From: Methylomonas sp. LW13
GTDB taxonomy: Bacteria > Pseudomonadota > Gammaproteobacteria > Methylococcales > Methylomonadaceae
Assembly (NCBI RefSeq): GCF_016865255.1
Contig: NZ_CP033381.1
Coordinates: forward strand, 4,154,001-4,218,000
DNA: 64,000 nucleotides
Direction: 5' to 3'
Made by a program: the position numbers and the translations under genes. Shown here one piece after another: positions 28,085-47,742 of this stretch (its first letter is position 1; the number at the start of each line of letters is the position of its first letter). The notes under the pieces are model-generated. The model was not told where the DNA came from. It did no database searches and saw only the letters and a program-made list of their open reading frames with translations.

Positions 28085-28132
28085 TGGTGGGTCGTGTGCG
28101 ATTCGAACGCACGACCATCGCATTAAAAGTGC
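28085..28132. repeat. Attachment site copy 2 (48-bp duplicate of tRNA-Lys 3' part)
   Basis: Identical over 48 bp to the tRNA-Lys 3' part at 51823-51870. Flanks differ on both sides. It is the junction of element B (left) and element C (right). Confidence 0.9.
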
Positions 28133-28661: not shown

Positions 28662-28859
28662 ATGCACGATCACCGGCCAAGCAAAACAAACATTAAACCC
28701 GCGATTGATCGCTGTGGTCACGATTCATTTTTGACAGAATTTAAGCATGGCGAGCCGACCGGCAATTATATTTGTGCGGGATGTGGGCGTCATCTTTCGG
28801 AGATTTTGCAAACGTCAGATTCACAAATGTCATATCCCCCCGTTCATTCGTTGAAATAA
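28662..28859 (+). CDS. Small zinc-ribbon-like protein, 65 residues
   Basis: The ATG follows GGAGAGGG. The protein has a Cys-His start, IDRCGHDSFLTEF, and a C-terminal YICAGCGRHLSEIL with a C-x2-C pair, plausibly binding one zinc ion. The function is unknown. It lies alone at the left end of element C, upstream of a terminator at 29098. Confidence 0.55.
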   Translation: MHDHRPSKTNIKPAIDRCGHDSFLTEFKHGEPTGNYICAGCGRHLSEILQTSDSQMSYPPVHSLK

Positions 28860-29097
28860 ACCAGCGGTCGCGGAACACCTAAATACCAATCGGTAACAGT
28901 TACCGACTGCTCGTGATCGGTTGCACTTGAAAAGATAGACGAATCGCTAAGAACGAACTTCGGAAACCGCAACACTAATGCCATTTTCCCCTCGATATAC
29001 TTACCTTGCGTTCAATGGCGATTGATCGCAGCCGGCCCGAGTTACCCAAATGCCCGGGTCGGCATCTTGTCAGTTCATGAGATTGCAAGGATGCATC

Positions 29098-29136
29098 AGC
29101 CGGCAAGCCTTATACGGGGGCTTTGCCGGCTTTTTT
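29098..29136 (+). terminator. Rho-independent terminator
   Basis: The stem AGCCGGCAAGCC pairs with GGCTTTGCCGGCT (one bulged T) around a 9-nt loop and is followed by TTTTTT. It would end plus-strand transcription from the 65-residue gene about 240 bp upstream. Confidence 0.8.
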
Positions 29137-29225
29137 ATGGGTGATGAATTTTTGATGGTACAATTTTTTCAAGTTGGCAACTGGCTAAACCGGAAGGATT
29201 AGTTCCCCGGTCGTTGGAAGTAGTT

Positions 29226-29721
29226 GCAAGAAAAGGCTGCGATTCGTCGTGGCCTTTTCTTTTTGTGGCCGATTGTATCGATTGGGCTTTTGGGCTATAT
29301 TCAAACCGTCGGCAACCCCAGCTTTGGCTGCTGGGATCGATGTCGGCGCAAGCAAAGGATGCGATTATTATTCGTGTCCTTTGTTTTTTGCGCGACATTT
29401 CATTATCGACGCGGCCTAGATTCAATCTATGGTTATTTCCACCGATGCCGAGAAATTCCTAAGGCCTTGCAAAATAAAGGTAACGCAAAATTTGCGTTAC
29501 TGATGTGGTGCAGCTTTTGCACCCCATCGGCAGTGATACTTTATCCGCTTAAAACGGTTTGCTTGCTCCCCGATATTGGGGAGCGATCACAATTCCGACT
29601 AATTATCGGAATTCATTGGCGCTGAACCATCTTTCAAGACCGATAGCGGATTTACGCTATCGCGTTCAGATGTGAAAGGATCGGATTTCAAATCCGACCC
29701 TTCCGACGTCTTCCAGGTCGG
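29226..29721. repeat. Chain of consecutive perfect hairpins, no clear gene
   Basis: In about 500 bp I count at least nine separate inverted repeats with different sequences. Arms: AAGAAAAGGC (29229-29262, with T-run), an 18-bp interrupted stem built on CAAAGGA (29340-29398), TAGATT (29417-29429), GTAACGCAAA (29480-29500), GGTGCA extended by GATG (29502-29528), GCTCCCC (29565-29584), AATTCCGA (29591-29613), CGATAGCG (29641-29662), TCGGATTT (29681-29697), CCGAC (29703-29721). The last two share bases, so alternative folds exist. Frames across the region are open but show no protein-like composition. It lies downstream of the Rha gene on the minus strand. Confidence 0.75.
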
Positions 29722-29851
29722 ATTTGAATTTTCTAGCAAGCTTGATTGTACTCTCGTGTTTTACTTTGCACTGTTCAGCAATAATCAAGGTGGTAGTTGT
29801 CAATTTCTGTCCATGAACTTCGACCAGCTTCAATTTTGCATCGGTGCTCAT
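29666..29851 (-). CDS. Rha-family regulator, short form
   Basis: A 61-residue protein matching the N-terminal part of phage Rha (pRha) regulators: VHGQKLTTTTLIIAEQCKVK followed by HESTIKLARKFKSDLEDVGR and VGFEI. Full Rha proteins are longer, with a further DNA-binding or antirepressor part, so this copy is short or truncated; its last codons enter the hairpin chain. Its ATG overlaps the AlpA stop (ATGA). Rha proteins modulate lysogeny in several phages. Confidence 0.75.
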   Translation of the reverse strand: MSTDAKLKLVEVHGQKLTTTTLIIAEQCKVKHESTIKLARKFKSDLEDVGRVGFEIRSFHI

Positions 29852-32616: not shown

Positions 32617-34182
32617 TCACTCCACATCCGAAAACATATCCTCAGCCTCGGCTATCGCTTTAGCCACCGCTGAATTAACGCCGCTGCCGGCGTTATCCGA
32701 CACCATATAAATCGCATCTTCCAGCCACGCGAACGACTTGGCATCAAATATGTCGGGCGACTTGATGCCGTTCTTACGCATGACCTCTTTCTTTTCCATC
32801 ACGTACCGCAGTCCGCCCGCCTCGGCGAAGTGGTAAGGCAACCGCGCCCCCTGTAGCAGTATCTTTTCCTTCATCTTGCGGTCGATGTTCATTCGAAACG
32901 ACACCCGGCCCGACTTGATGCCGTCACGCATCCGCACCATAGCGCATGCCCGCTGGTTGTAGAATCGGTCCTGGTATTCTTTCTTGAAACATGGCTTGCC
33001 CCAATTCACCTTGACGACCGGAACCCCCATGGCCTCGATCAGTTTGTTCACCGTCGCGCCAACGCCGCCGTTATCGACCATCAGCGTGGCGTTTGATAGC
33101 TTGCCAACCAGATTAGCCAGATCCCCGGCGAAAATGATTTCGTTTTTTCTATTGGTGCAGTACGGGATTTCGATGTACTCGACTCGCCGCGCATCCGGGC
33201 CAAAGTCACCATAGCCAATCACTTTGGCAATAATGGCGACCGATTCGTCGCGGTATTCGCCCAAGCCAACGTCCGACAGCACCAACAAACCATACGGTTC
33301 GTCATCGCGGATAATTTGCCCGCGCTCGAACGCTCTTTCCAGTTCGACCCGGGTAAGCAGGTTGCTGCCGGAATCCTCAGCGAACAGACCGAGAACCCGG
33401 ATTCGGTACTCAATCGATTCTCGCCCGCCCGTTTCGTCGTCACGATCCTTGAGCCATTGCATCGTGACAAATGGCGACCGCTCCGAGCTGAAGCGTAACG
33501 AGATCCACGATCCACCACCGTTACGGGATAAATTGTGGTGCGACTCGTAAAACCTGCCGGCGTTGCGCACCCCCTGGGATGCCATCAACGTGCGGTTTCC
33601 AGGCTGGGTTTGGGTGCCGTCAATTACATCGAAATGCTCATCCGAGACACCAGCCGCTTCGTCAATGATGATCAGCTGCCAATACCTGTGTTTGCCGGCC
33701 ACACCGATGGCTTGTCCTTGTTGCATGGCAACCTGGGTGATAAACCACTGGTCTTCAAAGCCCTTGACCGCTACTCGGGTTTTGGTAATCTCGTAGTAGT
33801 CATTGATCCAGCCATACGGCCCGTTGGCGATGGCAAGATAAACGTCGTTCATCTCTTTCCAAACACCGTCGGCTACCTGATTTATCCTTGGGGCTCCGAT
33901 GTAGGTGTTCGAGCCGATTTCGACCTTGCCCTCATACACCGCGACCGGATGACAAAGCAGGTGCCACAAGGCTATCCGTCCGAATGCCGCCGTCTTGCCG
34001 GTTGACGTGCCGGACACCACCGACACCTTGGCATTGGGCGGGGAAATAGCGAAAAGCAGGTCTTCCTGGTCGAACGATGGCGACATGCCGCACACGCTGA
34101 CCGCAAAACGTAGCGGGTCAGCGTGGAAGCGTTCAACGAATTCGAGGTACCTGGGATCTTGGAAGATCGAAGCCTTCGCCAT
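32617..34182 (-). CDS. terL: Terminase large subunit
   Basis: A 521-residue packaging ATPase-nuclease. Walker A is VVSGTSTGKTAAFGRIALWH near residue 55 and Walker B LIIIDEAAG near 167. The C-terminal nuclease shows LLVLSDVGLGE (D), ATLMVDNGGVGAT (D) and DAKSFAWLED (D), fitting the RNase H-like fold. TerL powers DNA translocation into procapsids and cuts concatemers. It follows the small subunit by eight bases. No portal or capsid gene follows, which is unusual for a complete phage. Confidence 0.85.
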   Translation of the reverse strand: MAKASIFQDPRYLEFVERFHADPLRFAVSVCGMSPSFDQEDLLFAISPPNAKVSVVSGTSTGKTAAFGRIALWHLLCHPVAVYEGKVEIGSNTYIGAPRINQVADGVWKEMNDVYLAIANGPYGWINDYYEITKTRVAVKGFEDQWFITQVAMQQGQAIGVAGKHRYWQLIIIDEAAGVSDEHFDVIDGTQTQPGNRTLMASQGVRNAGRFYESHHNLSRNGGGSWISLRFSSERSPFVTMQWLKDRDDETGGRESIEYRIRVLGLFAEDSGSNLLTRVELERAFERGQIIRDDEPYGLLVLSDVGLGEYRDESVAIIAKVIGYGDFGPDARRVEYIEIPYCTNRKNEIIFAGDLANLVGKLSNATLMVDNGGVGATVNKLIEAMGVPVVKVNWGKPCFKKEYQDRFYNQRACAMVRMRDGIKSGRVSFRMNIDRKMKEKILLQGARLPYHFAEAGGLRYVMEKKEVMRKNGIKSPDIFDAKSFAWLEDAIYMVSDNAGSGVNSAVAKAIAEAEDMFSDVE

Positions 34183-34190
34183 AAGCCTTA

Positions 34191-34715
34191 TTACTCCGCT
34201 TCGGGCCTTGCCTCACGTTCAGCCAACACCGCTTTTTGGCGTTCATGTGCGGCTGCCATTTTGGTGACAAACTGGGTTTCGATCATATCCAGTGTTTCTT
34301 TGTCCAGTTTCAACGATCCATTGACCTCGATCTTATCGCGCCATTTATCAGGCTGACGGTTTTTCATCCAGAATATCGCCGCAGTCGTTTCGGGCGGGTA
34401 GTGCTTGGTTACATCGGTCAAAATGACCTGACCATCTGCAATGTTTACTTTGGTTTCAGGGCAGCTGTAACCGGTCGCGCGCTGGAACAATGAATTGGCA
34501 ACTTTAGCGTCGGCAAGCGTTTTGCCGCGCTTGAGGGAATCGGCAAACTCCGGGGCCTGCTTTTTCCATGTGTTGATCGTCTTCTCGCTCACACCGAAAA
34601 ATCCGGCCAGCTGCGCATCGGTGGCGCCAAGCAGGCAATAGTTGTAAGCCTGGTCAATGAACTCCGGCTTTAACGCGGTGGGCCGACCACCAGCGTGTTT
34701 TTTGGTATTTGGCAT
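34191..34715 (-). CDS. terS: Terminase small subunit
   Basis: A 174-residue protein. The N-terminal helix-turn-helix is ALKPEFIDQAYNYCLLGATD, AQLAGFFGVSEKTINTWKKQ, the usual DNA-recognition part of TerS. The centre has FQRATGYSCPETKVNIADGQ and AIFWMKNRQPDKWRDKIE, strongly typical of small terminases. It selects the packaging site and presents DNA to TerL. A 28-bp gap separates it from the repressor-like gene upstream. Confidence 0.85.
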   Translation of the reverse strand: MPNTKKHAGGRPTALKPEFIDQAYNYCLLGATDAQLAGFFGVSEKTINTWKKQAPEFADSLKRGKTLADAKVANSLFQRATGYSCPETKVNIADGQVILTDVTKHYPPETTAAIFWMKNRQPDKWRDKIEVNGSLKLDKETLDMIETQFVTKMAAAHERQKAVLAEREARPEAE

Positions 34716-34743
34716 AGGGTTTACCCTTTAGGGGCTGAAGAAA

Positions 34744-35313
34744 CTACGTTTTGGATTGGGTTGATGCATGATACCCCGCCAATTTTCGCCCAATTGCCGC
34801 GACTTCCGAACTCGCTTCATCGACCACTCTGAGCAGTTTTGCCCCCAGTTTCAGCTCATCGAATTCCGGATTGATTTCGCGGAAGCGGTTGACGATCTTC
34901 TTGATTTCGCCGAATCGGTTGAAGGCGACCTCTGCCGCCTGTTCGACCACCGACAGCTGATCAAACAGATTCCGGATAGCGTTGTTCTCTTCGGCGCTGA
35001 CTTGTTCGAGAGCCCTTTGAATTTGGCATTGTTGGGAAATTAGTGGGTCGCGCTGCCAGTCGTCCGACAAGGCAAAAAGAAAATCAAGGCTGACCTGATA
35101 CACAATAGACGCTTTGTATGGTAGAAAAGCAGGAATTGCCAGCGGATCGCTGGCATGCTCTATCTTGCTCAACTTGGAGGAATTGGCGTATCCCAGCCGC
35201 TCAGCCGCTTCCAGACCGCTCAGTCCGCACATTTCGCGCGCAATTATCATGCGCTGACCGAATGTTTTAACGATTTTTTGCTTTTCTTCTGTGTCGATGA
35301 TTACCGGCTGCAT
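34744..35313 (-). CDS. Helix-turn-helix regulator (Cro/CI-type)
   Basis: A 189-residue protein. Residues about 15-60 form the HTH: FGQRMIIAREMCGLSGLEAA, ERLGYANSSKLSKIEHASDP. The remainder is helical and lacks a Ser-Lys peptidase site. It resembles the other HTH protein at 39280-39996 in organisation (HTH plus long helical region with VSLDFLFALSDDW versus ACWILGLVADDW), so the two look like distant paralogues. Probably a regulator of element C genes. Confidence 0.75.
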   Translation of the reverse strand: MQPVIIDTEEKQKIVKTFGQRMIIAREMCGLSGLEAAERLGYANSSKLSKIEHASDPLAIPAFLPYKASIVYQVSLDFLFALSDDWQRDPLISQQCQIQRALEQVSAEENNAIRNLFDQLSVVEQAAEVAFNRFGEIKKIVNRFREINPEFDELKLGAKLLRVVDEASSEVAAIGRKLAGYHASTQSKT

Positions 35314-35400
35314 GTTTTCCCCGCGTCTTGGAAGTTGGGAAATTTAAGCACGTTGAAAAGTTGATTTTGATTGAGGTTTCCGAGTTGATATACGCTAGGT

Positions 35401-36696
35401 TTATTTGCAGCTGACGCAGACCAGCTCGCGCCAGTCGGTGGTGTAGCGCTGAGACATTTTCTCTGCTTTAGGTTTCCAGGTTTGATCGATACGAGCCGTG
35501 GCGATGGCAATGCCCTTAGGGAAACGTTGGTTGATGTGATCTACCGTTTTCATCAAGGCGCGGTTTTCTGCCGGTAAACCCGAGTTGTTAAAGTCGAATA
35601 GCTCAGTTTGTCCCGGTGCGGTTTCCGACTGAATATGACTGAGTTGTACGCCGCATTTGTAATACCCGTAGCCAGTTTGGTAAATGGCACGGAGTAAGCG
35701 ATCCACAACAGCCAGAATCACCCGAGTATCTTGGCTGTGTTGATCCAGCTTAGCACTGGCACTGCGCTGGTATTGCGGTTCGCGTTCGGCAAAGCCATTG
35801 GTCCGAATGAAGATTGTCACGCTGCCGGCTACCGACTGTTGTTGCCTGAGTTTCTCGGTGGCTCGACTGGTGAACTCGGCCAGCGCAGCAGATAACTCGT
35901 GGTAGTGGGTTAAGCGTCGGCTGAAACTGCGGGAACAGACAATTTGCTGTTTATTCGGGGCAATTTCTTCCAGGTCCAAGCAGGCAATACCGTTCAATTC
36001 CATCACCGTCCGAGCTACCACGATACTGAATTGCTGCTGGATTTTCTCCGGCGGTTGGCAGGCCAACTCCCAGATGGTCTTAATCCCAAGTTGATCCAGT
36101 TTGCGCGAGATTTGCGGGCCAATACCCCAAACCTCGTTGACAGGGACGAGACGCATCAGCTTTTCCCGGCGTAGCGGGTCCGACAGATCCAATACGCCGT
36201 TGGTTTGTTTCCACTTCTTCGCGGCAAAGTTTGCCAGTTTAGCCAAGGTCTTGGTGGGCCCCATACCGACACAGACCGGAATACCCGTCGCGCGGAACAC
36301 GGCATGCTTGATTTGCTGTCCGTAAGCAATCGGGTCGGATTGACACGGATAGACGCCGGTCAAATCAAGAAACGCCTCGTCAATCGAATACACCTCCATG
36401 CATGGGGAAAAGGCTTCCAAAGTCGCCATGACCCTGGCTGACATTTCGGCATAATGCGAATAATTGGATGAAAAAACGTGAATGTTGTGCTGCTCAACAA
36501 GGTGCCGAACCTGAAACAGTGGGACGCCCATTTTGATGCCAAACGCTTTCACTTCGGCACTTCTGGCCACCACACAGCCATCGTTGTTACTCAAGACAAT
36601 CACCGGTTTGCCGTTCAGATCGGGTCTGAATACCCGCTCACAACTAACGTAAAAATTGTTGGCGTCCACCAAGGCGATGCGAGCCTGTTCCTGCAT
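35401..36696 (-). CDS. umuC: DNA polymerase V catalytic subunit UmuC
   Basis: A 431-residue Y-family polymerase from ATG 36696, two bases after the umuD stop. Catalytic acidic residues are in [17 protein letters not shown] and [13 protein letters not shown]; helix-hairpin-helix is [16 protein letters not shown]. The C-terminal little-finger and UmuC-specific tail (RTTDW-like [12 protein letters not shown]) are present, so it is full length. With cleaved UmuD it performs error-prone translesion synthesis. Mobile umuDC copies are common on phages and plasmids. Confidence 0.93.
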
Positions 36697-36698
36697 AA

Positions 36699-37211
36699 TT
36701 AAACAGCATGAATAACATTGGTCACGACGCCCCACACCACCAGATCCAAATCATCAGTGAGAACAATGTCAGGATAATCCGGGTTTTCTGCTTTTAGTGT
36801 CCACTGTTCGTTTTCACACGTAAGGCGCTTAACCGTCAGTTCGCCGTTGAGTGCACAAATCACTACCTTACCCGCGACCGGCTCCAGGGATCTATCGACG
36901 ACTAAGATGTCGTTGGGGTGAATGCCGGCCCCAAGCATCGATTCACCTTGTGCCCTAACAAAGTACGTCGCGGCAGGTTTTTGGATCAGCAATTCATTTA
37001 AGTCCAGGTTTTTTTCGATGTGGTCGGCTGCTGGCGAAGGGAAACCCGCAGAGACTTTGCCAGCGAACAACGGTAGGCGAAGTCGTTGTAGCCATTGAGA
37101 CGGCTTGGACACGGCGAGTCGATCTGCCAAAATCACTACATCTTCGACGACATTACGTTTAAAAGGCATTACAGGCATGGCATGACAATTAGTCTGATGA
37201 ACGGGTGGCAT
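36699..37211 (-). CDS. umuD: UmuD-type mutagenesis peptidase
   Basis: A 170-residue S24 protein. The self-cleavage site is [11 protein letters not shown] (Ala-Gly), the nucleophile Ser in [11 protein letters not shown], and the general-base Lys in [13 protein letters not shown]. It is about 30 residues longer than E. coli UmuD; a later start at 37178 or 37169 would give the usual length, and the 37211 start is only weakly supported. An SOS-like operator lies at 37235-37249 just upstream. RecA filaments trigger cleavage, activating UmuC. Confidence 0.9.
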
Positions 37212-37234
37212 AGCCTACCATCGAAAAGGCCATT

Positions 37235-37249
37235 GTTCTATATTTGTTC
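37235..37249. promoter_or_regulatory. Candidate LexA operator of GTTC-N7-GTTC type
   Basis: GTTCTATATTTGTTC matches the direct-repeat LexA box known from alphaproteobacteria rather than the CTG-N10-CAG box of enterics. It lies in the 110-bp divergent gap between umuD (minus) and the SRAP gene (plus), both typical SOS genes. Confidence 0.6.
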
Positions 37250-37321
37250 TTAGTGACGGTATTGTGCAACTCCTGGACATTCGGGTTTAATGCATCCCAG
37301 TAATCAGCGTGAGGCAAGGGT

Positions 37322-37978
37322 ATGTGTGGCCGCTACAGTTTGACGACAAAGCCGGACATCATCATTGAGCATTTTCAGTTACTTCGCCAGGTAAAGTTTC
37401 AACCGAGCTACAACATCACACCCGGCAGAAAAATACTGAACATCGTTGAACTCGATGACGGATCACTAAAGCCGGTAAATCTGTATTGGGGCTTGGTGCC
37501 ATCCTGGGCCAAAGACACCAAAAACAGCGGGCACCTGATCAACGCCAGAGCAGAAACGGTGAAGGAAAAGCCGTCGTTCCGGTCTGCATTCAAACACCGC
37601 CGCTGCCTGATCCCGGCCACCGGTTTTTATGAGTGGGAGCGGAAAAACGGCAAACAGCCTTTTCACATTCACCGTCCGGACAACAGCCTGTTCGCCTTCG
37701 CCGGCCTTTGGGAACAATGGCAACATGAAACAGAAACTCTGTATTCCTGCACGATTATTACCACATCTGCATCTGAGCTAATGCAACCCATCCACGACCG
37801 AATGCCGGTCATCATAACGCCGGGCTACTACCGGCAATGGCTGAATAAAGCCGCTGGCGCCGACGAGGCCCTTGAATTACTGGATAACCACGCCTATGCC
37901 GAAATGACCGCTACACCAGTAGGCGATTGGGTGAACAATCCAAAGCACGATGATGAGCGTTGTGTTGCCCCTGTTTAA
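37322..37978 (+). CDS. yedK: SRAP/HMCES family abasic-site protein (YedK-like)
   Basis: A 218-residue protein with Cys2 at the exposed N-terminus (MCGRYSLTT), the abasic-site crosslinking residue once Met is removed. Other active residues are visible in INARAETVKEKP (Asn), GFYEWERK (Glu) and PIHDRMPVII (His). SRAP proteins shield abasic sites in single-stranded DNA. It is divergent from umuDC and shares the operator region, fitting joint SOS induction. Length is typical. Confidence 0.93.
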   Translation: MCGRYSLTTKPDIIIEHFQLLRQVKFQPSYNITPGRKILNIVELDDGSLKPVNLYWGLVPSWAKDTKNSGHLINARAETVKEKPSFRSAFKHRRCLIPATGFYEWERKNGKQPFHIHRPDNSLFAFAGLWEQWQHETETLYSCTIITTSASELMQPIHDRMPVIITPGYYRQWLNKAAGADEALELLDNHAYAEMTATPVGDWVNNPKHDDERCVAPV

Positions 37979-38051
37979 ATAAATTGCAGTCGATTAAGGA
38001 ACGTCGGAGGATAATCGTCTGCAACAGAGAAATCCAACAACAGGAGGATTT

Positions 38052-38471
38052 ATGCGCGGACCAGTAACGATTTTGGTACTTAGCCTGTTTCTATCGGGTA
38101 CGGCTTTCGGCGATCAGGATGATTGGGTCTACATGCCTCGTCAACAGCAACAGAAACAAAGGCAATACGAACAGCAGCAGCGTGCCCAACAACAGCAATT
38201 CCAGCGCCGGGATGATTACCGGGATGACTATAACCAGAGCGAGGGTAACCAAGGCTATCAAGGTTACCAGGGCTATCAAGGTTACCAGGGCTATCAGGGC
38301 TATCAGGGCTATCAAGGCGGCTATAGGGGATATAATCAGCAGCCTCCGACCGGTTATCAGGCCCCGGCCGATTATTACGGGTTGCCACCGGTTAGAGGCT
38401 TTGTTTATCCTCAGCAGCAGCAACCGCAACAAATGCCAAGGATCGAGCAACGTCACCGGGGGCGCTGGTAA
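38052..38471 (+). CDS. Secreted Gln-rich protein with GYQ tandem repeats
   Basis: A 139-residue protein with an AGGAGG ribosome site and signal peptide (TILVLSLFLSGTAFGDQDD). The mature part is rich in Gln, Tyr, Arg and Gly, with seven GYQ repeats followed by GGYRGY, a Gln-run QQQQPQQ near the end and basic RHRGRW at the C-terminus. It looks disordered and adhesive or RNA-binding, like small envelope proteins of free-living bacteria. It is an unusual passenger in a phage-like element. Confidence 0.6.
   Translation: MRGPVTILVLSLFLSGTAFGDQDDWVYMPRQQQQKQRQYEQQQRAQQQQFQRRDDYRDDYNQSEGNQGYQGYQGYQGYQGYQGYQGYQGGYRGYNQQPPTGYQAPADYYGLPPVRGFVYPQQQQPQQMPRIEQRHRGRW
38253..38315 (+). repeat. 9-bp tandem repeat, seven units
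   Basis: Seven copies of GGCTATCAA/GGTTACCAG-type units in frame, encoding Gly-Tyr-Gln each. Alternating synonymous forms suggest duplication of an 18-bp pair. Copy number could vary by slippage. Confidence 0.85.
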
Positions 38472-38496
38472 GCATCAACAATACCGTGCCCGCGTA

Positions 38497-39261
38497 TTAC
38501 CGTCTTTGGCCTGAATTTACACCGATATTGTTATCCAGGTACCGACTCCAGTCTGCTCGGTCAATCGCAGCAAGCGTGGTCAATTTCATGGGAACTGTCA
38601 GCTCGACAAATTTGCCATGTTTATCAACCGGGGAATTTGTATCCTTGCTGATCGATTCGATGACCAGTGGCCAGTAGGTGGCATCCTTGTACTTCACTGC
38701 CAGAAGAACCGGAGCGATTGACGGGAAAGTTGTGGCGTACTTAAATCCGTCTTGTAATAGCCTGGCCGCGAGGCTACCTTCTTCGGATAGCTCGACTGGC
38801 AGCACCCACTTCATTAGCTGATCGAAGGGTTTATGCACCTCTTCGACCGGATTTTTCCAGGCGCGGAATAGTGCCGTGACATTAAACGTGGCCGGCGCAG
38901 CACCGACAAATACTTGGGTGCTATTGAGCTTTGTTATTGCGGTTCGGCCTTCAAGGCCGTGAGCGAGGCGCTGTAGGTCGCTTCCGAACACGCTGTCGGC
39001 TTTGCCAACTAAACCTTCAATGCTGCCGCTTTGTACCATTTGCTGGAGAGTGGGCGTGATGTTTTGCGCGCCCTGGTTTTCGAACGGGCTTGACCAGTTT
39101 AATGACATTTCCAGATTGGATTCCGTAATAGCCGCTTTAACCGTAATATCCTCAATGCGCTTGCCTTTGCGATCCACCGGCCAGAAAGATGCTATTAGGT
39201 GGGGGGACAAGTTGCCCCAGTCTGAGCTTAATACAACGGGTTTATCTGGTGCTGTTGCCAT
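38497..39261 (-). CDS. Hypothetical phage-element protein, 254 residues
   Basis: The protein begins MATAPDKPVVLSSDWGNLSP and contains LEMSLNWSSPFENQGAQNIT, LQQMVQSGSIEGLVGKADSV and FNVTALFRAWKNPVEEVHKP, ending with KFVELTVPMKLTTLAAIDRA. It is soluble and strand-rich. Its place beside the tape-measure-like gene suggests a virion or baseplate component, but I recognise no family. Confidence 0.55.
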   Translation of the reverse strand: MATAPDKPVVLSSDWGNLSPHLIASFWPVDRKGKRIEDITVKAAITESNLEMSLNWSSPFENQGAQNITPTLQQMVQSGSIEGLVGKADSVFGSDLQRLAHGLEGRTAITKLNSTQVFVGAAPATFNVTALFRAWKNPVEEVHKPFDQLMKWVLPVELSEEGSLAARLLQDGFKYATTFPSIAPVLLAVKYKDATYWPLVIESISKDTNSPVDKHGKFVELTVPMKLTTLAAIDRADWSRYLDNNIGVNSGQRR

Positions 39262-39279
39262 TTTTATTCCTGTTTTGGG

Positions 39280-39996
39280 CTATGATGCGAGTGCAGCCGG
39301 GGTTAATGAGGCGTGATTGCGTTGGCTGGTGGCGCGCGGATTACTTTCGGCTATCGGTAAGACTGGTTGCGGCAACTGCGCTGGTGCAGGTCTCTTCCAG
39401 ACTTTCATCGTTGGCTTTGGCTGCGGTAACGCGGCTAGCGCGTGAATCGGCAAGATTTTTGCTCGAACAAGGCTTAACGTTGCGGCGCGCGCTGCGGCTT
39501 GTCCTTGGTCGATTCGGCCAAGGACGGATGAACCACCAGCCATGTCTGTGAACTCTTCGTTTTTTGCCCAGAACGCCATAAATGAATCATCAATCGCCTG
39601 GACAGCCTGTGAAAGCAAGGTGACAGCTTCCGACAGGGCGGCAAGCTTGTTGTCCTGTTCGACCTGCTTGGCGACTTGCTGGGCCCGGCTTTCAAGGTGC
39701 AATTTCTCCAAGGCGACGAGAAAGTCACGCTCTCGCCTTGTTTCTATATCCAGTTCCCAGTCATCAGCGACCAAACCTAGAATCCAACAGGCACTAATAG
39801 CAAAGGCTTCTGCCGCCTTTTTGATCAGGCTGAGAGGCACAAGCGAAAGCCCTTCCTCCATAGCCCGGAGTTGATCAGGATGTATGCCGAGCAATTCAGC
39901 AGCTTGTTGCTGCGACAATTTACAGAACTCTTTTCGGGCCTCAGCCAACCGCAACCCAACTTGCTTTGATAGCAAAACCTCGTCCTTATCGATCAT
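39280..39996 (-). CDS. Helix-turn-helix protein
   Basis: A 238-residue protein from ATG 39996, chosen because AGAGGG precedes it; an upstream in-frame start at 40044 is possible. The HTH is VGLRLAEARKEFCKLSQQQA, AELLGIHPDQLRAMEEGLS. A helical segment follows with a Gln/Ala-rich stretch, and the C-terminus is Pro/Ala-rich and likely disordered. Distant similarity in layout to 34744-35313. Role unknown; regulator is the simplest guess. Confidence 0.65.
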   Translation of the reverse strand: MIDKDEVLLSKQVGLRLAEARKEFCKLSQQQAAELLGIHPDQLRAMEEGLSLVPLSLIKKAAEAFAISACWILGLVADDWELDIETRRERDFLVALEKLHLESRAQQVAKQVEQDNKLAALSEAVTLLSQAVQAIDDSFMAFWAKNEEFTDMAGGSSVLGRIDQGQAAARAATLSLVRAKILPIHALAALPQPKPTMKVWKRPAPAQLPQPVLPIAESNPRATSQRNHASLTPAALAS

Positions 39997-40070
39997 TCTA
40001 TGGCCCTCTTTGTCAAAAATTAGTTGCGGAATGGGGTTCAGCATAAGGCGGAACCCACTCGACTACTTAC

Positions 40071-42092
40071 CTACCATTGCCTCCACCCAATGCCGCCCGT
40101 AGCCAGGTGCGACGACGCCCTGTCTGATAGGTTTTGGCCGACGTCGCTGTTATCTTCAATTCGAACCACTTGCACCTTGTCGTTCTGCGCATTTAGCGGC
40201 TCGATTACCGTTGGTGCGTCCGCTACCTTAGGCGTGGATGGCATAGGTGGTGTTTTTAATGATGGTGCGTTAACCGACACCGCCCGGACAGCCGCAGCGC
40301 CTTGTTTGGCATATGTTGACATGAAGGTATTGCCGTCCGATTTGTCGATGCCGCGCAAAAAATAATCACTGGCACCAGTGGCGCCGCCAAGGTGTGCGGC
40401 TTTCAAGTAGGCGGCGACTTGCTCTGGGCTTGCGGCCATGCTGATTGCCCCGGACTTCACACCTTGAGTGAAGTTGAGTTTTTGCATGTCGGAAAAGGAT
40501 TTGTCTTGCAACGCTGAATCACTGAGATAGGCATCTTTGCCGCCGGCGATAGTCCAGTTTGCGGGATCGGCAAGGAACGATTTTTGATCGTATCGACCGG
40601 ATTTCTGGGCTGATTTAAGTTTGGCGAGATTGACTAGACCTGTATCGGCCAGCGTTTCCGCGCCCATTTGGTACTTGCCGATGAATCCTTTCGGATTTTC
40701 GGCGCGCGGGTCTCCACCGGAGGATTCGGTCCGCATGACCTCCGCAGCATACGCAGCGGCCTGAGCATCAGACAGGCCCGGTATTGATCCACCGAACGAG
40801 CCGAACGCTTTTTTACCGGCCTTGCCGAAGGTGGTGTTATCGAGTAACCACGATGGTGTACCCTTAATCGTGTCCCATGCGCCAGAAAGGTTGTTTTGGG
40901 TACGATCAAGCCACAGACCGCCTAATTCTTTCAGGTTAACGCCGGTATTCTTGTCGACGAATGTGTTGAAATCGTTGAGCTGCTCACCAACAACATTGCC
41001 GGCTTGGGTGAAATTGTTTTTTGTGCGCTCAAGCCACAGCTCGAAACCTTTTTGGAAATCAAAGCCGCCGGTCCAGCTTTCAAACGCGCTTACGAGCTTG
41101 CCGGGCACATCGGCTTGTCTGAGATCGGCCACCCAGGTTCCGAACTTCTCCCCAATAATTTGCCCAGCCTGGTCGCCAACCACGCCGCCAACCACGCCGC
41201 CTACGATAGTGCCGACCGGGCCAGCCGCCGAACCTGCCAATGCGCCGGCACCGATACCGGCTAGACTGCCAGTCCATCCACCGATTGACTTTCCCGCCGC
41301 CGCATCTTTCTGCGCGCGGGACAGATTAGGATCTGACTCACTGCCAAACACATCAACAGCAGCGCCACCAGCGGCAAACAGTGTGCCCAGAATAGGGATG
41401 CGTCTCAGGAGGCCTTTAGCACCTCGGCCCACCTTAGAAAGCAATCCGCCGAGCATTCCGCCGCCCAACATCCCACGTAGCAAGCCACCAATACCACCGC
41501 CACCGGCGGCGATCGTAGTGTTGCTACCGCCATTAGTGCCGTTTGGCTTTTCCTCAATAGCCTTGAGACTTTTCTTTGCGGCCTTGTTGTAAACGCTTTC
41601 TTCGCGGTGGAAAACATCAAGTTTCCTGAAAATCTTGCGAAGTAATCCTTCCTGCTTGCTATCAGCGCGATTGAACAGGCTTAAACCTCGCCGCATGGGC
41701 TCAGCCACTTCCTGGAATGCTTTTGCAGCCGGATCGACATCGCCGGCAGCACTAAGACCACCTCGAGAGGCATTGGCAAGGCGCGCCGCTAAGGCTGCAA
41801 TTTCCGCCGACGCCGCTTTGGTTTTGGGTGGCTCGGCAGCTTTGCCATTAAATGACGACGGCAAAAATTGTCCATTGGAACCGCGTAACGGGCTTGCCAC
41901 CTGCCGGCGGTTGGCCACTGGCGCCAACTGAGCAGGCTTAGCTGCTTGCCGGGTACTGTTCGGTCCGGCGCCGATAGCTGCTTTCCTGATCGCTGCCACA
42001 TCGTTTTTAATGTCGCGCAAATATCCCGGCATGCGGCCAAGGTCAATGGGGTCGCCGATTAGGAACCCCTGGCTATCACTTTGCAAAGCCAT
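40071..42092 (-). CDS. Tape-measure-like protein with lytic-transglycosylase-like segment
   Basis: A 673-residue protein. The first 160 residues are Ala-rich helical. Residues about 195-310 are Gly/Ala-rich and hydrophobic (GIGGLLRGMLGGGMLGGLLS, GAGALAGSAAGPVGTIVGGV), as in tail tape measures that cross membranes. Around residue 445-470 is EVMRTESSGGDPRAENPKGF then IGKYQMGAETLADTG, a lysozyme/transglycosylase-like active region with Glu. Such proteins open the cell wall during DNA entry. No other tail gene is clear, so it is either a tail remnant or a dedicated ejection protein. Confidence 0.65.
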   Translation of the reverse strand: MALQSDSQGFLIGDPIDLGRMPGYLRDIKNDVAAIRKAAIGAGPNSTRQAAKPAQLAPVANRRQVASPLRGSNGQFLPSSFNGKAAEPPKTKAASAEIAALAARLANASRGGLSAAGDVDPAAKAFQEVAEPMRRGLSLFNRADSKQEGLLRKIFRKLDVFHREESVYNKAAKKSLKAIEEKPNGTNGGSNTTIAAGGGGIGGLLRGMLGGGMLGGLLSKVGRGAKGLLRRIPILGTLFAAGGAAVDVFGSESDPNLSRAQKDAAAGKSIGGWTGSLAGIGAGALAGSAAGPVGTIVGGVVGGVVGDQAGQIIGEKFGTWVADLRQADVPGKLVSAFESWTGGFDFQKGFELWLERTKNNFTQAGNVVGEQLNDFNTFVDKNTGVNLKELGGLWLDRTQNNLSGAWDTIKGTPSWLLDNTTFGKAGKKAFGSFGGSIPGLSDAQAAAYAAEVMRTESSGGDPRAENPKGFIGKYQMGAETLADTGLVNLAKLKSAQKSGRYDQKSFLADPANWTIAGGKDAYLSDSALQDKSFSDMQKLNFTQGVKSGAISMAASPEQVAAYLKAAHLGGATGASDYFLRGIDKSDGNTFMSTYAKQGAAAVRAVSVNAPSLKTPPMPSTPKVADAPTVIEPLNAQNDKVQVVRIEDNSDVGQNLSDRASSHLATGGIGWRQW

Positions 42093-42101
42093 GGTTGCCG
42101 C

Positions 42102-42626
42102 CTATGGATAGCTGATGGCGGTATTTACCAGCCAGTCGACATCGTACATTCTCGGATAATCGGGGTATGGCCCTGATTTGAGAAAGCTGCGCAACTTATC
42201 GGCTTCTGTCTGAGCGGTGGCAATGGCAGCGGTTTCTATGTCGAAATTTGGCTCAGGGTACAGTGTGGAAAACTCCGCCTCAGTTAACGATCTTTCAGGC
42301 TTTGCGGCATTACGGAAATAGTTGTCAAGTTCCAGAAAATCGGCTGCAATTTCCGGGCTTTCGTTTGCTGGCGAAAGTTGGTCGGCACCGGTTTTTACTG
42401 CGTTATACAGCGTCAAATTTGTTCCTGAAACTGGCGGATTTGGAAATAATTCGACAAATTCTGCCGGCGTCATTCGATTTTTCATTGCCGCATTAAACCG
42501 ATTTGCGAGCTGCATGCGCTCGTAACCTATTTTGTCATCTTGGTTGAACCGAACAATCTCTTGAAGCGCCTGGATTCTGGCTTTTACTTCGCCTAATTTT
42601 TCGCCGGTTACTATCTGCATATTCAT
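42102..42626 (-). CDS. Paralogue family member 1, unknown function
   Basis: A 174-residue helical protein. Its C-terminal half, ERSLTEAEFSTLYPEPNFDI, then TAAIATAQTEADKLRSFLKS and GPYPDYPRMYDVDWL, aligns with the ends of the next three upstream genes. It has no signal or membrane segment. The gene is ten bases upstream of the tape-measure-like gene on the same strand. Confidence 0.6.
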   Translation of the reverse strand: MNMQIVTGEKLGEVKARIQALQEIVRFNQDDKIGYERMQLANRFNAAMKNRMTPAEFVELFPNPPVSGTNLTLYNAVKTGADQLSPANESPEIAADFLELDNYFRNAAKPERSLTEAEFSTLYPEPNFDIETAAIATAQTEADKLRSFLKSGPYPDYPRMYDVDWLVNTAISYP

Positions 42627-42653
42627 GATTATTTATTCCCTATCTGTTTGAGT

Positions 42654-43175
42654 TTAATGTGAAACTGGCTCGGCTTGCTCGAACTCTGTGCCGACGAGCA
42701 GTCGCACGTCATAGCCGGGTGACGCCAAAAACGCCTCCAACTTTCCGCGCTCAGCAGCTAGGTCGGCGATATTTGCGGAAAAGGCGTCTACATTGGCTTG
42801 CGGAAATGGCATCAGGCTTACAGCCTCATCGCTGGTGTAACCTTGCCGGATAAGCTCGGTAACTTTTTCTGTGTGGGTGCTGATAAACAACTGACCGAGG
42901 CGTTGCTCGCGTTCGATCTCAGCACCGAGCGAGAAAGCCCGTAAGGCAACCCTCCCGACCAAGCCTTGATCCATCATGGCGATTTCGGCGGCGTTGACCG
43001 GCTTGGTAACACCGTTGACTTCATCCAGAATTGCTTCGGCCCAACACAACGATTGTGCAAAGTGCTCCACAGCGTCCCTATCGTATTCCAGGGCCTGGGC
43101 GGATAACCCGCGCAAGGCGGCGATTGTGGCTTCCAACTGCTGCCGTGCTTGCGGCTTATTGAACGGGGGCAACAT
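42654..43175 (-). CDS. Paralogue family member 2, unknown function
   Basis: A 173-residue helical protein. The shared C-terminal block reads VTELIRQGYTSDEAVSLMPF, NIADLAAERGKLEAFLASPG and YDVRLLVGTEFEQ. The N-terminal half (LSAQALEYDRDAVEHFAQSL) follows the same helix spacing as member 3. Stop and start of adjacent members abut, so the array is one transcript. Confidence 0.6.
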   Translation of the reverse strand: MLPPFNKPQARQQLEATIAALRGLSAQALEYDRDAVEHFAQSLCWAEAILDEVNGVTKPVNAAEIAMMDQGLVGRVALRAFSLGAEIEREQRLGQLFISTHTEKVTELIRQGYTSDEAVSLMPFPQANVDAFSANIADLAAERGKLEAFLASPGYDVRLLVGTEFEQAEPVSH

Positions 43176-43727
43176 TTAAGCGGCCTCGACTTGATTCAAG
43201 CCGCCGTCGAATTGGGTGCCAGCAAGGTGGTGCATCTCATAAACCGGCGCGCTTTCAAGGAATTGATTTAGTTTGCTCTGCTCGATTTTCAGTGCTTCGA
43301 CGGCTTCTGCATGGCCGGCCAATTCTTCTGCGGGATATGGCTCGATAGTGGCTATCTGTTTCTCGCTAAAGCCGGAATGTTTCAGCTCGCCAACTCGGTA
43401 ATCATGCGCTTGGCGCAAAAGCTCTGCCGTGCGCTGACGCAGGGTGATTTCGCCTGGAATTGCCAACGTGCGACCGGCCACTCGTTTAAGCAGTTCATTT
43501 CCCCCGGCCGCCTCAAAATCATCAGCAGCTTTTTTAAAAACTCGGTCAGCATCTTTGATGTGGGCCTCTAAACAACTAACGGCTCTACCAATTACCTTGG
43601 CGGTGTAGCTGTTGTTGGAGATCTCACGGTTTCCTATTCTCTTTAGCTCGCGTATGGCCGGCAGAATGGTTTGCTTGGCGTGAGCCGCCTCCAAGAAATC
43701 AGTTTTCGTGATGGTTTTGGTTTTCAT
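43176..43727 (-). CDS. Paralogue family member 3, unknown function
   Basis: A 183-residue protein from ATG 43727, with AGGA upstream. Its C-terminal block reads ELKHSGFSEKQIATIEPYPA, VEALKIEQSKLNQFLESAPV and YEMHHLAGTQFDGG, closest to member 2. It is helical and soluble. It ends one base before member 2 begins. Confidence 0.6.
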   Translation of the reverse strand: MKTKTITKTDFLEAAHAKQTILPAIRELKRIGNREISNNSYTAKVIGRAVSCLEAHIKDADRVFKKAADDFEAAGGNELLKRVAGRTLAIPGEITLRQRTAELLRQAHDYRVGELKHSGFSEKQIATIEPYPAEELAGHAEAVEALKIEQSKLNQFLESAPVYEMHHLAGTQFDGGLNQVEAA

Positions 43728-43857
43728 GAAATTTTTCCTGTTTTGATGCAATGGCGATTTGGTGTAATAAGAGTAACGCCGCCCAGACAGGCGGAGCGGC
43801 GAACTTTCCGAATCCGGATTTTCTACTCGGCGGACTCAGGTACAGGGACGAAACGGG

Positions 43858-44376
43858 CTAATTTGGTGCCGGATGGCACGCCGAGATCATTTGAGTCGCG
43901 GCGATAAACCTCTCGATTTTTTCAAGCTCGGGCTTTAACACCCTTAACGCATCGAAATGGGGCGTGTACTGAATACCCTCGTCCGGCAAAATCCCTTCGA
44001 TTTCGAATAAGGAGAATCCCTTGTGCATCAGCAGTTCAACGTTTGTGCCATGTATTTTCGCTAAATTTTCCAACGCCCAATCGTGTAAAAATATTTCGTT
44101 TTTCAGCTTTTCAATCTTAGCGACAGCGGCGGAAATGGCGTCGGGTTGATAGGTGTGTGGACGAGACACGCTGTCTAGAATGGATTGATGTCTTTCAACT
44201 TCAGACTCAAGCCATTTTTGGAACTCGTTAATTTTCAGCGTTGAGTCATCGTCGTCGAAGTCGAGCTCCAATTCTTCCGTAATGCCTTTCAAGGCAGAAA
44301 TGACAGGACCAATGTGGCAAACAAAGCGTTGCGCCACATTCAAGTCATCACGATCTAGCGTTTTTTCTTCTTTCAT
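43858..44376 (-). CDS. Paralogue family member 4, probably frameshifted at its end
   Basis: A 172-residue protein from ATG 44376, with GGGG upstream. It has the family block LLMHKGFSLFEIEGILPDEG, FDALRVLKPELEKIERFIAA. In frame it ends SACHPAPN at 43858. In the next frame the sequence reads DLGVPSGTKLARFVPVPESA to TAG at 43823-43825, which resembles the L-x-GT-x-F ends of the other members. A frameshift near 43885, mutational or programmed, would explain this. Confidence 0.6.
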   Translation of the reverse strand: MKEEKTLDRDDLNVAQRFVCHIGPVISALKGITEELELDFDDDDSTLKINEFQKWLESEVERHQSILDSVSRPHTYQPDAISAAVAKIEKLKNEIFLHDWALENLAKIHGTNVELLMHKGFSLFEIEGILPDEGIQYTPHFDALRVLKPELEKIERFIAATQMISACHPAPN

Positions 44377-44420
44377 GGTTTTTCCCCTTTTGGGTTTTAA
44401 AAAAATGGTTTTGAACTCGT

Positions 44421-44717
44421 TTATTCCGGAGCCGGGTTCCAACGCCCTAAGTTGGTGGCATGCTCCGCCGAGTTAGCCTTGACAAAAAAACTTTTGCCGA
44501 GCGGCGTCCAGACTTCAATTGATTGAGGATATTCATCGACTAACTGTCGAGGTGAATTTCCGGCGATGCAGGCCAATATCTCCGGCTTGTGTTGCCGGAT
44601 GTAGTCACGCTCATCGCCGGAAAGCTGGGACGCGGGATTGATCACAAGCGAATCGCCTTGGGCGGCGAAAGTGAATCCCGATGACTGAAGGCTGGTAACG
44701 AAGTGCAAGACGCTCAC
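44421..44717 (-). CDS. TubC-type docking-domain-like small protein
   Basis: A 98-residue protein from GTG 44717, which overlaps the primase-helicase stop by one base. The first 50 residues, LQSSGFTFAAQGDSLVINPA, QLSGDERDYIRQHKPEILAC, match the fold pattern of TubC N-terminal docking domains, often seen next to phage primases. The rest contains VWTPLGKSFFVKANSAEHAT. Likely an accessory of the replication protein. Confidence 0.65.
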   Translation of the reverse strand: MSVLHFVTSLQSSGFTFAAQGDSLVINPASQLSGDERDYIRQHKPEILACIAGNSPRQLVDEYPQSIEVWTPLGKSFFVKANSAEHATNLGRWNPAPE

Positions 44718-46561
44718 TAGAACACCTCCGCGTCAATGCCAGCTAAGTCGGTGTTGGGTTGTTCAGCGGTCGAGTAGTGAACGTACTTGCGCGGTGCAAT
44801 ACCGGGGGCGCCGAGGAACTGGTGAGAGGGTTTGTGGAACCAGAGCGCAATTCGAGGCTCGTCTTCGCCGTTGCGTTGCTTTTCGCACAGGCAAAGTGCG
44901 TCTGGCTCTTTCTGGATTTGGGCGACTTCAATATCGTCAAGGTTTGGCTGTTTCAGTTTTTCCTCTTTCTTTCGGTTTCGCCACCAAATGAGCACAGTAT
45001 CGGCCAGATTGGTAGTAGAGCCGCCGCCTAACACATCGAACTTGCCGCCGGGCTTTTCATCGTTGTCGCCTTTGCGCAAGTGCGCGACCAGGATAATGTG
45101 AACATCATGGTCCTTAGCAAAGTCAGTCAATTTGTCAACAAAATCCCGCTGCCTGTTGAAATCGTCAGGATTGATGTCGAGCTTTGACATATTATCGATG
45201 ACGAATAAATTGATACCGTAGCGCTGGCGGGCGTAGCCGAACACCTCCAGCATCCGCTCTCCCTTGGCTGTTTTGGATATATCAAAAACCCACAGGCTAT
45301 TGCCTAGCCACTCCATGATTTTACCGATGTACTGGTCGGCGGGTTGCTCAACACAGGAGGCTTGCCTGACCAATCGTTGCAGCCACCGCTGAGGTTTGAA
45401 CTCCATGGATGCGACACAGGCGCGTCGGCCCTGAGCGATGGCGTCGAGGGTAATGTGTCCAACCCCTTCGCTTTTACCATGGCCGTTCACGCCCGCCACA
45501 ATCGTGAGTTCGCCCGGACGGAACTGGAGGGTTTTGCACTTACCCCAAGGAGTGCTGAACCCGATTTCGGTCTGAGTGGGGTTGAATGCCGCGATAACGC
45601 CATCTACATATTCGGCGGCGTTGCGCAGTTCTGACGGGTCGAGGGTTTTAGCTTTGCTCAACAACTCTTGCATCTGGGCCAGCGACAAACCGGCCCGCAG
45701 GCAGTCATTGGCATCCTTGTGCGGCAACTCGACAACTCGACACCGGTGCCGCCCCAGTCTGTCGATAATCTCGGCTGCGGCTTGTCGGCCCACATCATCG
45801 TTATCCATCGCGATGTAGATGACATCGCACCGTTCCAGGTTGTCGAATTCGTGCTCGATCCAATCGTGCTTTGCGCCGGTGCCGCCGCCGAACGGTACCG
45901 ACAAGGCCGGTATTTGATATTCGAACAGCGACATGGCGTCGATTTCACCCTCGGTGATGGCGACGAATCGCGCTTCCGGCGGGATCGCCTGCCAACCGAA
46001 CAAGGCCGGACGCATGTCGGCTTCGGTCACACCGAATTTTTTGCCGGCGACATGGCGCCATTTAGTCATGACCAGTTCGCCAGTTGGGTTATAACAGGGA
46101 AACAATACCGATTTTGGCGTTTGGCCCACGCGGTACGCCTTGAGTGTGGCTTCGGAAAGCTTTCGCTCTTGCGTCAAGTATTGCCATACCGGCGAACCGG
46201 CAACAGCCTCAGCAGGCTTGATTGACGGTTTTTTGAAAGCCTTCTGCTGGCGAACGAATGTCGGTTTCTTGGCGCCAGGATTTAAGCCCAACCAAGTTGC
46301 GGCTTGGGCCATAGCTTCCGGCATGGAGATATTGCGCACCTCGCGCCATAAGTCCAGCAAGTCACCGGTTTGACCCGTTGCAAAATCAGACCAGATGCCG
46401 GCTTTATCCCCGTGGAGGCGAACACCAAGGCTTTTACCGGCTTCTCCCGAGATTGAACCGCAGCGCCACTCCCGACTATCCAACTTGCCATTGGGCAGCA
46501 GGTGTTTAGCAACTTCCCCGGCGCTACGGGATAACAAGTCCGCTATCTCGTTTGGCCTCAT
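44717..46561 (-). CDS. Phage primase-helicase (Toprim plus DnaB-like)
   Basis: A 614-residue protein similar in plan to T7 gp4. The N-terminus includes SGEAGKSLGVRLHGDKAGIW. The Toprim domain shows VAITEGEIDAMSLFEYQ (Glu) and VIYIAMDNDDVGRQAAAEII (DxD). The helicase domain has LTIVAGVNGHGKSEGVGHIT (Walker A near 370), LFVIDNMSKL (Walker B) and HIILVAHLRKGDNDEKPGGK. It would unwind and prime the element's DNA. The gene overlaps the initiator gene by four bases (ATGA). Confidence 0.88.
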   Translation of the reverse strand: MRPNEIADLLSRSAGEVAKHLLPNGKLDSREWRCGSISGEAGKSLGVRLHGDKAGIWSDFATGQTGDLLDLWREVRNISMPEAMAQAATWLGLNPGAKKPTFVRQQKAFKKPSIKPAEAVAGSPVWQYLTQERKLSEATLKAYRVGQTPKSVLFPCYNPTGELVMTKWRHVAGKKFGVTEADMRPALFGWQAIPPEARFVAITEGEIDAMSLFEYQIPALSVPFGGGTGAKHDWIEHEFDNLERCDVIYIAMDNDDVGRQAAAEIIDRLGRHRCRVVELPHKDANDCLRAGLSLAQMQELLSKAKTLDPSELRNAAEYVDGVIAAFNPTQTEIGFSTPWGKCKTLQFRPGELTIVAGVNGHGKSEGVGHITLDAIAQGRRACVASMEFKPQRWLQRLVRQASCVEQPADQYIGKIMEWLGNSLWVFDISKTAKGERMLEVFGYARQRYGINLFVIDNMSKLDINPDDFNRQRDFVDKLTDFAKDHDVHIILVAHLRKGDNDEKPGGKFDVLGGGSTTNLADTVLIWWRNRKKEEKLKQPNLDDIEVAQIQKEPDALCLCEKQRNGEDEPRIALWFHKPSHQFLGAPGIAPRKYVHYSTAEQPNTDLAGIDAEVF

Positions 46562-47358: not shown

Positions 47359-47367
47359 CTTGCTGCC

Positions 47368-47550
47368 TTATTCCTTCGGCCAACGCAAAATTGCTATGCG
47401 GTTGCCATTCTTATCTTTACAAACAGCAGTGCCATGTTTACGATTCGGGATTATTCGACCGATTATCGAGGCGGCAATATAATCACCGCTAATCGTTTGA
47501 AATAAACCATTTTCAAGTAAAATATCTTTGATTTTCTTTGGATCGCTCAC
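47368..47550 (-). CDS. Small conserved-looking protein, 60 residues
   Basis: The GTG at 47550 has GGGAGG eight bases upstream; longer starts lack such a site. The protein reads SDPKKIKDILLENGLFQTIS, YIAASIIGRIIPNRKHGTAV, KDKNGNRIAILRWPKE. It is a compact alpha/beta protein, perhaps DNA-binding. It lies just upstream of the replication initiator on the same strand. Confidence 0.55.
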   Translation of the reverse strand: MSDPKKIKDILLENGLFQTISGDYIAASIIGRIIPNRKHGTAVCKDKNGNRIAILRWPKE

Positions 47551-47670
47551 AGTAACCTCCCAACAATACCGCCCAAAAAGACGGAATAAATCCACATCGC
47601 ACGTTGGGCGCATTTCCGGTGTTTCTTCTATTGATTTGCCGTCGAGTTGAAGACTTTGATACCGGGAATT

Positions 47671-47690
47671 TGCGCCTTTTTCTGCGCCTA
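47671..47690 (+). promoter_or_regulatory. Internal GCGCC-N7-GCGCC site
   Basis: Two GCGCC half-sites with a 7-base spacer, the same geometry as the candidate arm sites at 787, 28237 and 51731, but with a T-rich spacer. It lies in the intergenic gap before the 60-residue gene and could link integrase binding with early gene control. Next to it, 47724-47742 is a hairpin with arm ACCGCAT. Confidence 0.35.
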
Positions 47691-47742
47691 ATTAAATGCA
47701 AGCCTCAAAACACAAGGCATTGCACCGCATTTAATATGCGGT

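Follow-up and report, generated by a model that had tools for sequence, protein, structure and literature searches.

The window examined here, a 64,000-nucleotide stretch of the Methylomonas sp. LW13 genome (positions 4154001-4218000 of a single contig of 5.23 Mb), holds a hairpin-rich region in which 29226-29392 appears to comprise all of one candidate small-RNA gene, s3, preceded by the part of another, s2, that resembles its terminator. A further candidate, s1, lies upstream of s2, outside the box (29226-29721) that a first-pass annotation had marked as an array of hairpins. The reading that we favour, and hold to be somewhat probable, is that s1, s2 and s3 are separate small-RNA genes arranged in tandem on the plus strand of a prophage-like element, and that their products would act in trans. 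Every unit would have a promoter and an intrinsic terminator to itself, the head hairpin being the conserved part and the terminator hairpin interchangeable. Their most likely function would be that of regulatory RNAs of the prophage regulatory region, acting in trans through heads that some partner, RNA or protein, recognises, and the hairpin tract beyond s3 would be the space between this unit and a converging, truncated rha gene, holding a terminator-like site for rha. The three candidates are probably new small-RNA families of a known kind. The box had also been proposed to encode one long structured RNA; it was found instead to contain the end of s2 and the whole of s3, then a tract flanked by genes that converge, and finally coding sequence.

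Setting of the candidate RNAs

Copies of the exact repeat that bounds the element were located at 28085-28132 and 51823-51870, the second forming the 3' part of the tRNA-Lys, and s1 and the array sit 0.9-1.6 kb inside the tRNA-distal end (Table 1). Eight of the ten element proteins scanned against PHROG gave matches, which included the large and small terminase subunits, a PmgG-like head protein, a transcriptional regulator, a tail-lysozyme or tape-measure-like protein, a primase/helicase, a replication initiator and the truncated Rha-like regulator. No capsid gene was present among the element proteins scanned, which were some of those encoded (region 32617-51308). A degraded prophage and a satellite are both possible readings of the element. 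Between the element end and s1 lies an ORF of 65 aa (28662-28859, plus strand) that contains a CxxC motif; it had no match in Pfam or PHROG. Four adjacent ORFs of 173-194 aa on the minus strand (42102-44442) make up a paralogous set, with 31% over 96 aa for the best pair (E 3e-13); the one member of the four that was scanned, at 42654-43175, gave no PHROG match.

Table 1. Features of the element and of the candidate small-RNA units, in window coordinates.
Feature	Position	Strand	Remarks
Prophage-like integrated element, 23.8 kb	28085-51870		bounded by 48-bp exact direct repeats
s1, candidate small RNA	28996-29142	+	RNA about 29002-29142; -10-like TATACT at 28996-29001
s1 terminator-like hairpin, then T-run	29098-29131	+	from sequence and fold
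s2, candidate small RNA	29159-29266	+	RNA about 29167-29266; -10-like TACAAT at 29159-29164
s2 head, conserved hairpin domain	29171-29228	+	pairing kept; covariance model R2
s2 terminator-like hairpin, T-rich end	29228-29266	+	-20.1 kcal/mol; hairpin '29229' of the first-pass annotation
s3, candidate small-RNA unit	29273-29390	+	own head and terminator-like hairpin
s3 promoter-like site	29273-29301	+	TTGTAT - 17 - TATATT; 8/12 matches
s3 head, conserved hairpin	29302-29350	+	internal loop AAC / AUCGAU; pairing kept
s3 terminator-like hairpin	29350-29390	+	-18.9 kcal/mol; hairpin '29352' of the first-pass annotation
Tract of five perfect hairpins	29393-29665		between s3 and converging rha
Perfect hairpin, terminator-like for leftward rha transcription	29480-29500	-	followed by a T-rich stretch
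Hairpin just beyond the rha stop codon	29641-29662	-	
Truncated rha-like regulator gene, 61 aa	29666-29851	-	
int-alpA RNA (Rfam RF02996)	49262-49329		Rfam match, carried by the element
Integrase adjoining the tRNA	50055-51308		PHROG 1, E 1.3e-63
tRNA-Lys	51823-51898		

Hairpin content and folding

A comparison of fold energy with shuffled sequence had been proposed along with the first-pass annotation, and it bore out the presence of strong structure. The stretch 29200-29670 folded to -185.3 kcal/mol on the plus strand (z -8.43) and to -171.3 kcal/mol on the minus strand (z -6.94), and none of 100 dinucleotide shuffles was as low in either case. The single units were also more stable than shuffled sequence, with z scores of -4.22 for s1, -4.70 for s2 and -6.01 for s3 (0/200 shuffles as low for each).

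We counted as perfect any non-overlapping stem of at least 6 bp with a loop of 3-12 nt, using 200 shuffles as a control. The box contained seven such stems, not at least nine, against a shuffle mean of 1.23 and a maximum of 5. One stem lies in 29226-29392, five in 29393-29665 and two in 29666-29740. The hairpins at 29228-29261 and 29350-29386, with 15 pairs each, include G-U pairs and are therefore not perfect. An eighth perfect stem, 29702-29722, ends one base beyond the box within rha, and 29681-29697, which is among the seven, is likewise coding sequence of the truncated gene. Two ORFs that would make the array itself coding DNA (133 aa, 29224-29625; 96 aa, 29135-29425) had no Pfam match and were rejected.

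When stems of 7 bp or more were counted per 300 bp, the cluster that begins at 29480 had five, of which four belong to the tract and the fifth to the coding sequence of rha, and this was the highest count in 464 kb of the host genome (the window and 20 sampled 20-kb stretches). Twelve other clusters with three or four such stems per 300 bp were found in the same survey, and hairpin-rich stretches are therefore not unique to the array. Other perfect-hairpin clusters in the host genome are located at L100:934-1250, L097:18138-18450 and L102:4733-5050, and a recurring palindromic unit, GATACTTTCTTTTG...CAAAAGAAAGTATC, is common to those of L097 and L102. A REP/BIME or other dispersed palindromic repeat was rejected, as a search of the genome with 29090-29740 (a query that begins beyond 28996-29089) gave no copies: besides the query itself, the only hits were its own palindrome (E 0.85) and, at E >1, short matches spanning 16-41 bp.

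Conservation of the heads

Relatives of s2 and s3 were aligned, and the pairing of the two heads was monitored in each sequence. In the s3 head, 97.8% of cells were paired across six sequences and three pairs were changed on both sides, all three changes coming from the single row of genome G061. When 500 shuffles were scored in the same way, nine reached the paired percentage, five the number of double changes and none the covariation score. Sliding the alignment gave no double change at -2, -1, +1, +2 or +3, and one at -3. In the s2 head, where the identical row of G011 was counted once, 97.3% of cells were paired, compared to 22-53% when slid. One s2 pair had both sides changed (in two rows), a result also reached by 293/500 shuffles and by the +1 slide. 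The search for compensatory changes in relatives that had been suggested for this region yielded, for the heads, three double-changed pairs in s3, and one in s2 at chance level.

Both heads contain conserved G-U pairs. A U-G pair is present at columns 20/50 of the s2 head in all six distinct rows, and two pairs of the s3 head are U-G in four and G-U in five of the six rows, respectively. On the other strand these would be A-C mismatches, and the structure of s2 and s3 therefore points to an RNA of the plus strand. Taken with the compensatory changes, the G-U pairs support a fold of s3 that would have been kept by selection, in line with the selected structure proposed earlier; for the s2 fold, selection is more weakly supported. 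The s2 head is invariant at 45 of 58 positions in seven sequences from two genera, and this strong conservation makes a specific protein or RNA partner likely.

Candidate terminators and promoters

A GC-containing 3' hairpin followed by a U-run is present in s1, s2 and s3, and also in the alternative terminator-like hairpins of G011, G013 and G198. The T-runs of the s2 and s3 terminators are mostly paired within the stem as drawn, and a terminator scan of 28850-29760 flagged none of the plus-strand terminators of s1-s3. While the s3 head is constant, the terminator-like hairpin that follows it differs in G011 and in G013/G018; similarly, G198 carries a different terminator-like hairpin after a constant s2 head. 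Within the window, the terminators of s2 and s3 form a pair of copies that have diverged, contained in repeats that lie 122-125 bp apart and are 79% alike. Comparison of their 15 pairs revealed two changed on both sides, one changed on one side and none broken. The letters common to the two form the upper stem, including two conserved G-U pairs, and the loops are 4 nt (s2) and 7 nt (s3).

The first-pass annotation had noted that hairpins 29229 and 29352 share a loop-like sequence, TGCGATT...CGTG, on different stems. The sharing was confirmed as part of these repeats, and the sequence was found to be mostly upper stem rather than loop. It has four matches in the window (0.81 expected), two in the array and the others at 26722 and 50738. 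Upstream of an s2 relative, on the minus strand of stretch L075, a hairpin that ends in TTTTCTTTGCC looks similar, as judged by eye, to the alternative terminator of s3 in G013/G018, with CTYTTGA kept and the stem letters changed. The likeness is possibly another sign of module swapping.

Promoter-like sites were scored as matches out of 12 and compared with 1000 mononucleotide shuffles. The best site before the s3 head scored 8/12 in the window (92/1000 shuffles as good), in G024 (75/1000) and in G011 (66/1000), which is suggestive, and 7/12 in G013 (559/1000) and G018 (553/1000). Before s2, the best site scored 7/12 in both the window (561/1000) and G198 (674/1000), and before s1 in the window it scored 6/12 (849/1000). 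Promoter-like sites clearly exceeded shuffles only in two distant relatives, before the s3 head of G061 (9/12; 5/1000) and before the s2 head of G206 (10/12; 3/1000). A scan of 28850-29760 with a threshold of 9/12 found no site (1.3 expected). The promoter evidence is weak, and we therefore infer transcription of s1-s3 rather than show it.

The tract between s3 and rha

The tract contains five perfect stems of at least 6 bp, compared to a mean of 0.48 and a maximum of 3 in 200 shuffles, and its fold has z scores of -5.0 on the plus and -5.7 on the minus strand. The hairpin at 29480-29500 was the sole terminator-like site detected on either strand of 28850-29760, where about 1.2 would be expected by chance; it would suit rha as a terminator. 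When the hairpin just beyond the rha stop codon was compared with its counterpart in G024, two of the seven pairs had changed on both sides with pairing kept, and one was broken. The truncated rha product matched PHROG 2657 (E 7.5e-7) and the Rha-like PHROG 518 (E 3.2e-4), and a Pfam scan gave no match. In G031 (L026:5851-6644), a stretch that is transposase-like by eye splits the hairpin tract, between s1 and the remaining hairpins.

Distribution of relatives

A blastn search of 151 genomes gave matches in 11, including the host itself. A search of DNA across the bacterial family with 28960-29270 gave matches in 12 of 237 genomes, of which G029, G162 and G250 (matches of 24-28 bp) were left out unread. 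After inspection, s2 was present in 7/237 genomes and s3 in 6/237, the host included in each. Relatives of s1 were found by blastn at 74-81% identity in G013, G018, G024 and G031; blastn aligned the upstream part and about 34 nt of s1 alone in G025, and in G011, which was aligned by hand, the second hairpin of s1 is absent. Relatives of s2 at 94-99% identity are present in G011, G013, G018 and G024, and the s2 head alone occurs in G198 and G206, which belong to a second genus of the family. The s3 relatives are those of G011, G013, G018 and G024, together with that of G061, from a third genus, detected with covariance model R1 (E 2.3e-6).

Model R1 gave matches at E <= 0.1 in 38/237 genomes, and six were accepted (the host, G011, G013, G018, G024 and G061). 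Among the other 32, 24 with a locus were rejected by eye as protein-like sequence, plain terminators or other palindromes, and eight are unread. The s3 sequence pattern was found in 5/311 genomes, where the match in G220 was dropped by eye from the matched string. When the search was widened to the class, model R2 for s2 matched 1/369 genomes, the host itself, and model R3 for s3 (E <= 0.01) matched 11/369. Nine of the ten matches in genomes other than the host were rejected by eye and one (L123) is unread; the best of the nine (L118, E 2.5e-5) lies inside a 474-aa ORF. A second, weak R3 match in the host genome (L128) was also rejected.

No match to the s1 or s2 pattern was found in viral contigs. 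The stems of six viral-contig matches to the s3 pattern are not paired as in s3, and the six reached at best 16.0 bits with R3, compared to 59-79 bits for the members of the model, with no match to R2. Distant blastn of phage and plasmid records gave no match to the array. The s2 pattern was found in four stretches of a contig collection, two of which are G198 and G206; those in Ammonifex and Sphingobacteriia were rejected by eye. Because no class-wide, viral-contig, phage or plasmid match was accepted, the s1-s3 families would seem, as far as these searches reach, to be confined so far to this bacterial family. The array had no match in Rfam; the three weak hits obtained with 28900-29760 scored 15.5-17.1 bits, where the gathering thresholds of the families are 33-57.

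Discussion

The possibility that the array acts in cis only, with stacked terminators and RNA-stabilising hairpins insulating the element end and separating converging transcription, and with no RNA acting in trans, is doubtful but deserves attention. In its favour, s1, s2 and s3 each finish in a terminator-like hairpin, a further hairpin (29480-29500) looks like a terminator on the minus strand, the array is situated close to the element edge between converging units, and the promoters in the window are weak. However, an arrangement of this kind would leave unexplained an s2 head that is nearly invariant in two genera while the terminators change. The candidate genes could also belong to a modular small-RNA system of methanotroph prophages, in which conserved heads with their own promoters swap terminators, tandem cassettes lie at element ends, and the heads, by binding a factor of the phage or the host, control lysogeny or exclude rival phages. 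We regard a system of this breadth as improbable.

We also considered whether s1-s3 might control antirepressor genes as antisense RNAs, in the manner of P22 sar or of c4 in P1 and P7, and find this quite unlikely. Converging on the array are a Rha-like gene in the window and an anti-repressor Ant-like gene in G024, and in G018 a Rha/anti-repressor-like gene lies one gene back; the genes adjoining the array in G011 and G018 had no PHROG match. C4, an antisense RNA of phage immunity regions, has a neighbouring copy in four loci: in L022, L024 and L025 it is at most 5 kb away from the array, and in L035 just 260 bp separate it from the s3 relative. This proximity also speaks for the favoured reading of regulatory RNAs. 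However, C4 RNA was absent from the other stretches searched, namely the element of the window, 12-kb stretches of G011, G031 and G025, and the 8-kb stretches around s2 relatives in L074 and L075. Complementarity was measured for 15 RNA-gene combinations in four loci, with five start regions (three antirepressor-type, two of neighbours with no PHROG match). The longest accessible complementarity was 5-8 nt, no better than in mononucleotide shuffles, which reached it in 11/100 in the best case.

Hairpins that work as DNA, as signals for recombination, packaging or single-strand replication, appear highly unlikely. The stems of the tract are perfect Watson-Crick stems of about equal strength on both strands, and the element has terminase genes. 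Against this, the G-U pairs of s2 and s3 work only in plus-strand RNA, the stems differ in sequence and therefore offer no common recognition site, and the survey of 464 kb of the same genome detected 12 other clusters of at least three perfect hairpins per 300 bp.

That these RNAs serve as a CsrA decoy, or as an RNA anti-CRISPR imitating a repeat, is scarcely credible. GGA occurs in the conserved s2 hairpin, but with six GGA in 327 nt against a shuffled mean of 5.1, the array shows no enrichment of the CsrB/RsmZ type, and the sponge for a regulator suggested by the first-pass annotation is disfavoured in this CsrA-decoy form only. Cas1 is present in eight of the nine genomes that carry s1-s3-type RNAs, and 14 of the 15 stretches surrounding Cas1 contain CRISPR-like repeats. 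However, the longest word shared with CRISPR repeats, as would matter for an RNA of the Racr kind, was 7 nt for s1, 8 for s2, 6 for s3 and 9 for the tract, in a comparison that used repeat words found around Cas1 and excluded the arrays of G198 and G206. A put-type antiterminator RNA makes polymerase read through terminators, and this role is unlikely for s1-s3 because the next downstream gene, rha, runs the opposite way.

If the favoured cluster of separate small-RNA genes is transcribed, s1-s3 would add to the prophages of methane-oxidising bacteria new families of small RNA that Rfam lacks. The exchange of terminators while the head stays constant would illustrate clearly, in a natural case, how RNA genes evolve by modules. 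Among the matches listed in our literature search, from which subscription journals are largely absent, there was no description of prophage small RNAs in methanotrophs. The small RNAs named in two transcriptome papers on methanotrophs are different ones, and neither accessible text contains the word phage (PMC12403871, PMC6373157).

Prophage-encoded small RNAs are well known as a kind, c4, sar and AsxR being examples in the accessible part of one account (PMC12197685). C4 (Rfam RF01695) and sar of P22 resemble s1-s3 in being small structured RNAs from phage regulatory regions where antirepressor-like genes are also located (PMC12197685); s1-s3 differ from them in having no Rfam match to C4, and complementarity to antirepressor start regions at chance. 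The int-alpA RNA (RF02996) is structured and is carried by the same element as the array, but it occupies another locus, and the array has no match to its model. AgvB is an anti-sRNA. Like s1-s3, AgvB and AsxR of E. coli prophages are short prophage-encoded RNAs, according to the portions of the sources available (AsxR, PMC12197685; AgvB, PMC13192938), and s1-s3 have no Rfam match. The Pas small RNAs of E. coli prophages are base-pairing RNAs encoded mostly near capsid or tail genes, whereas the neighbour of s1-s3 is a rha-like gene; the two are set apart by description in the available text rather than by sequence comparison (PMC13192938). In the same available text, Pas RNAs resemble s1-s3 in that they are prophage-borne, sometimes two to a prophage region, have tRNA and other structured RNAs nearby, and are diversified by recombination (PMC13192938).
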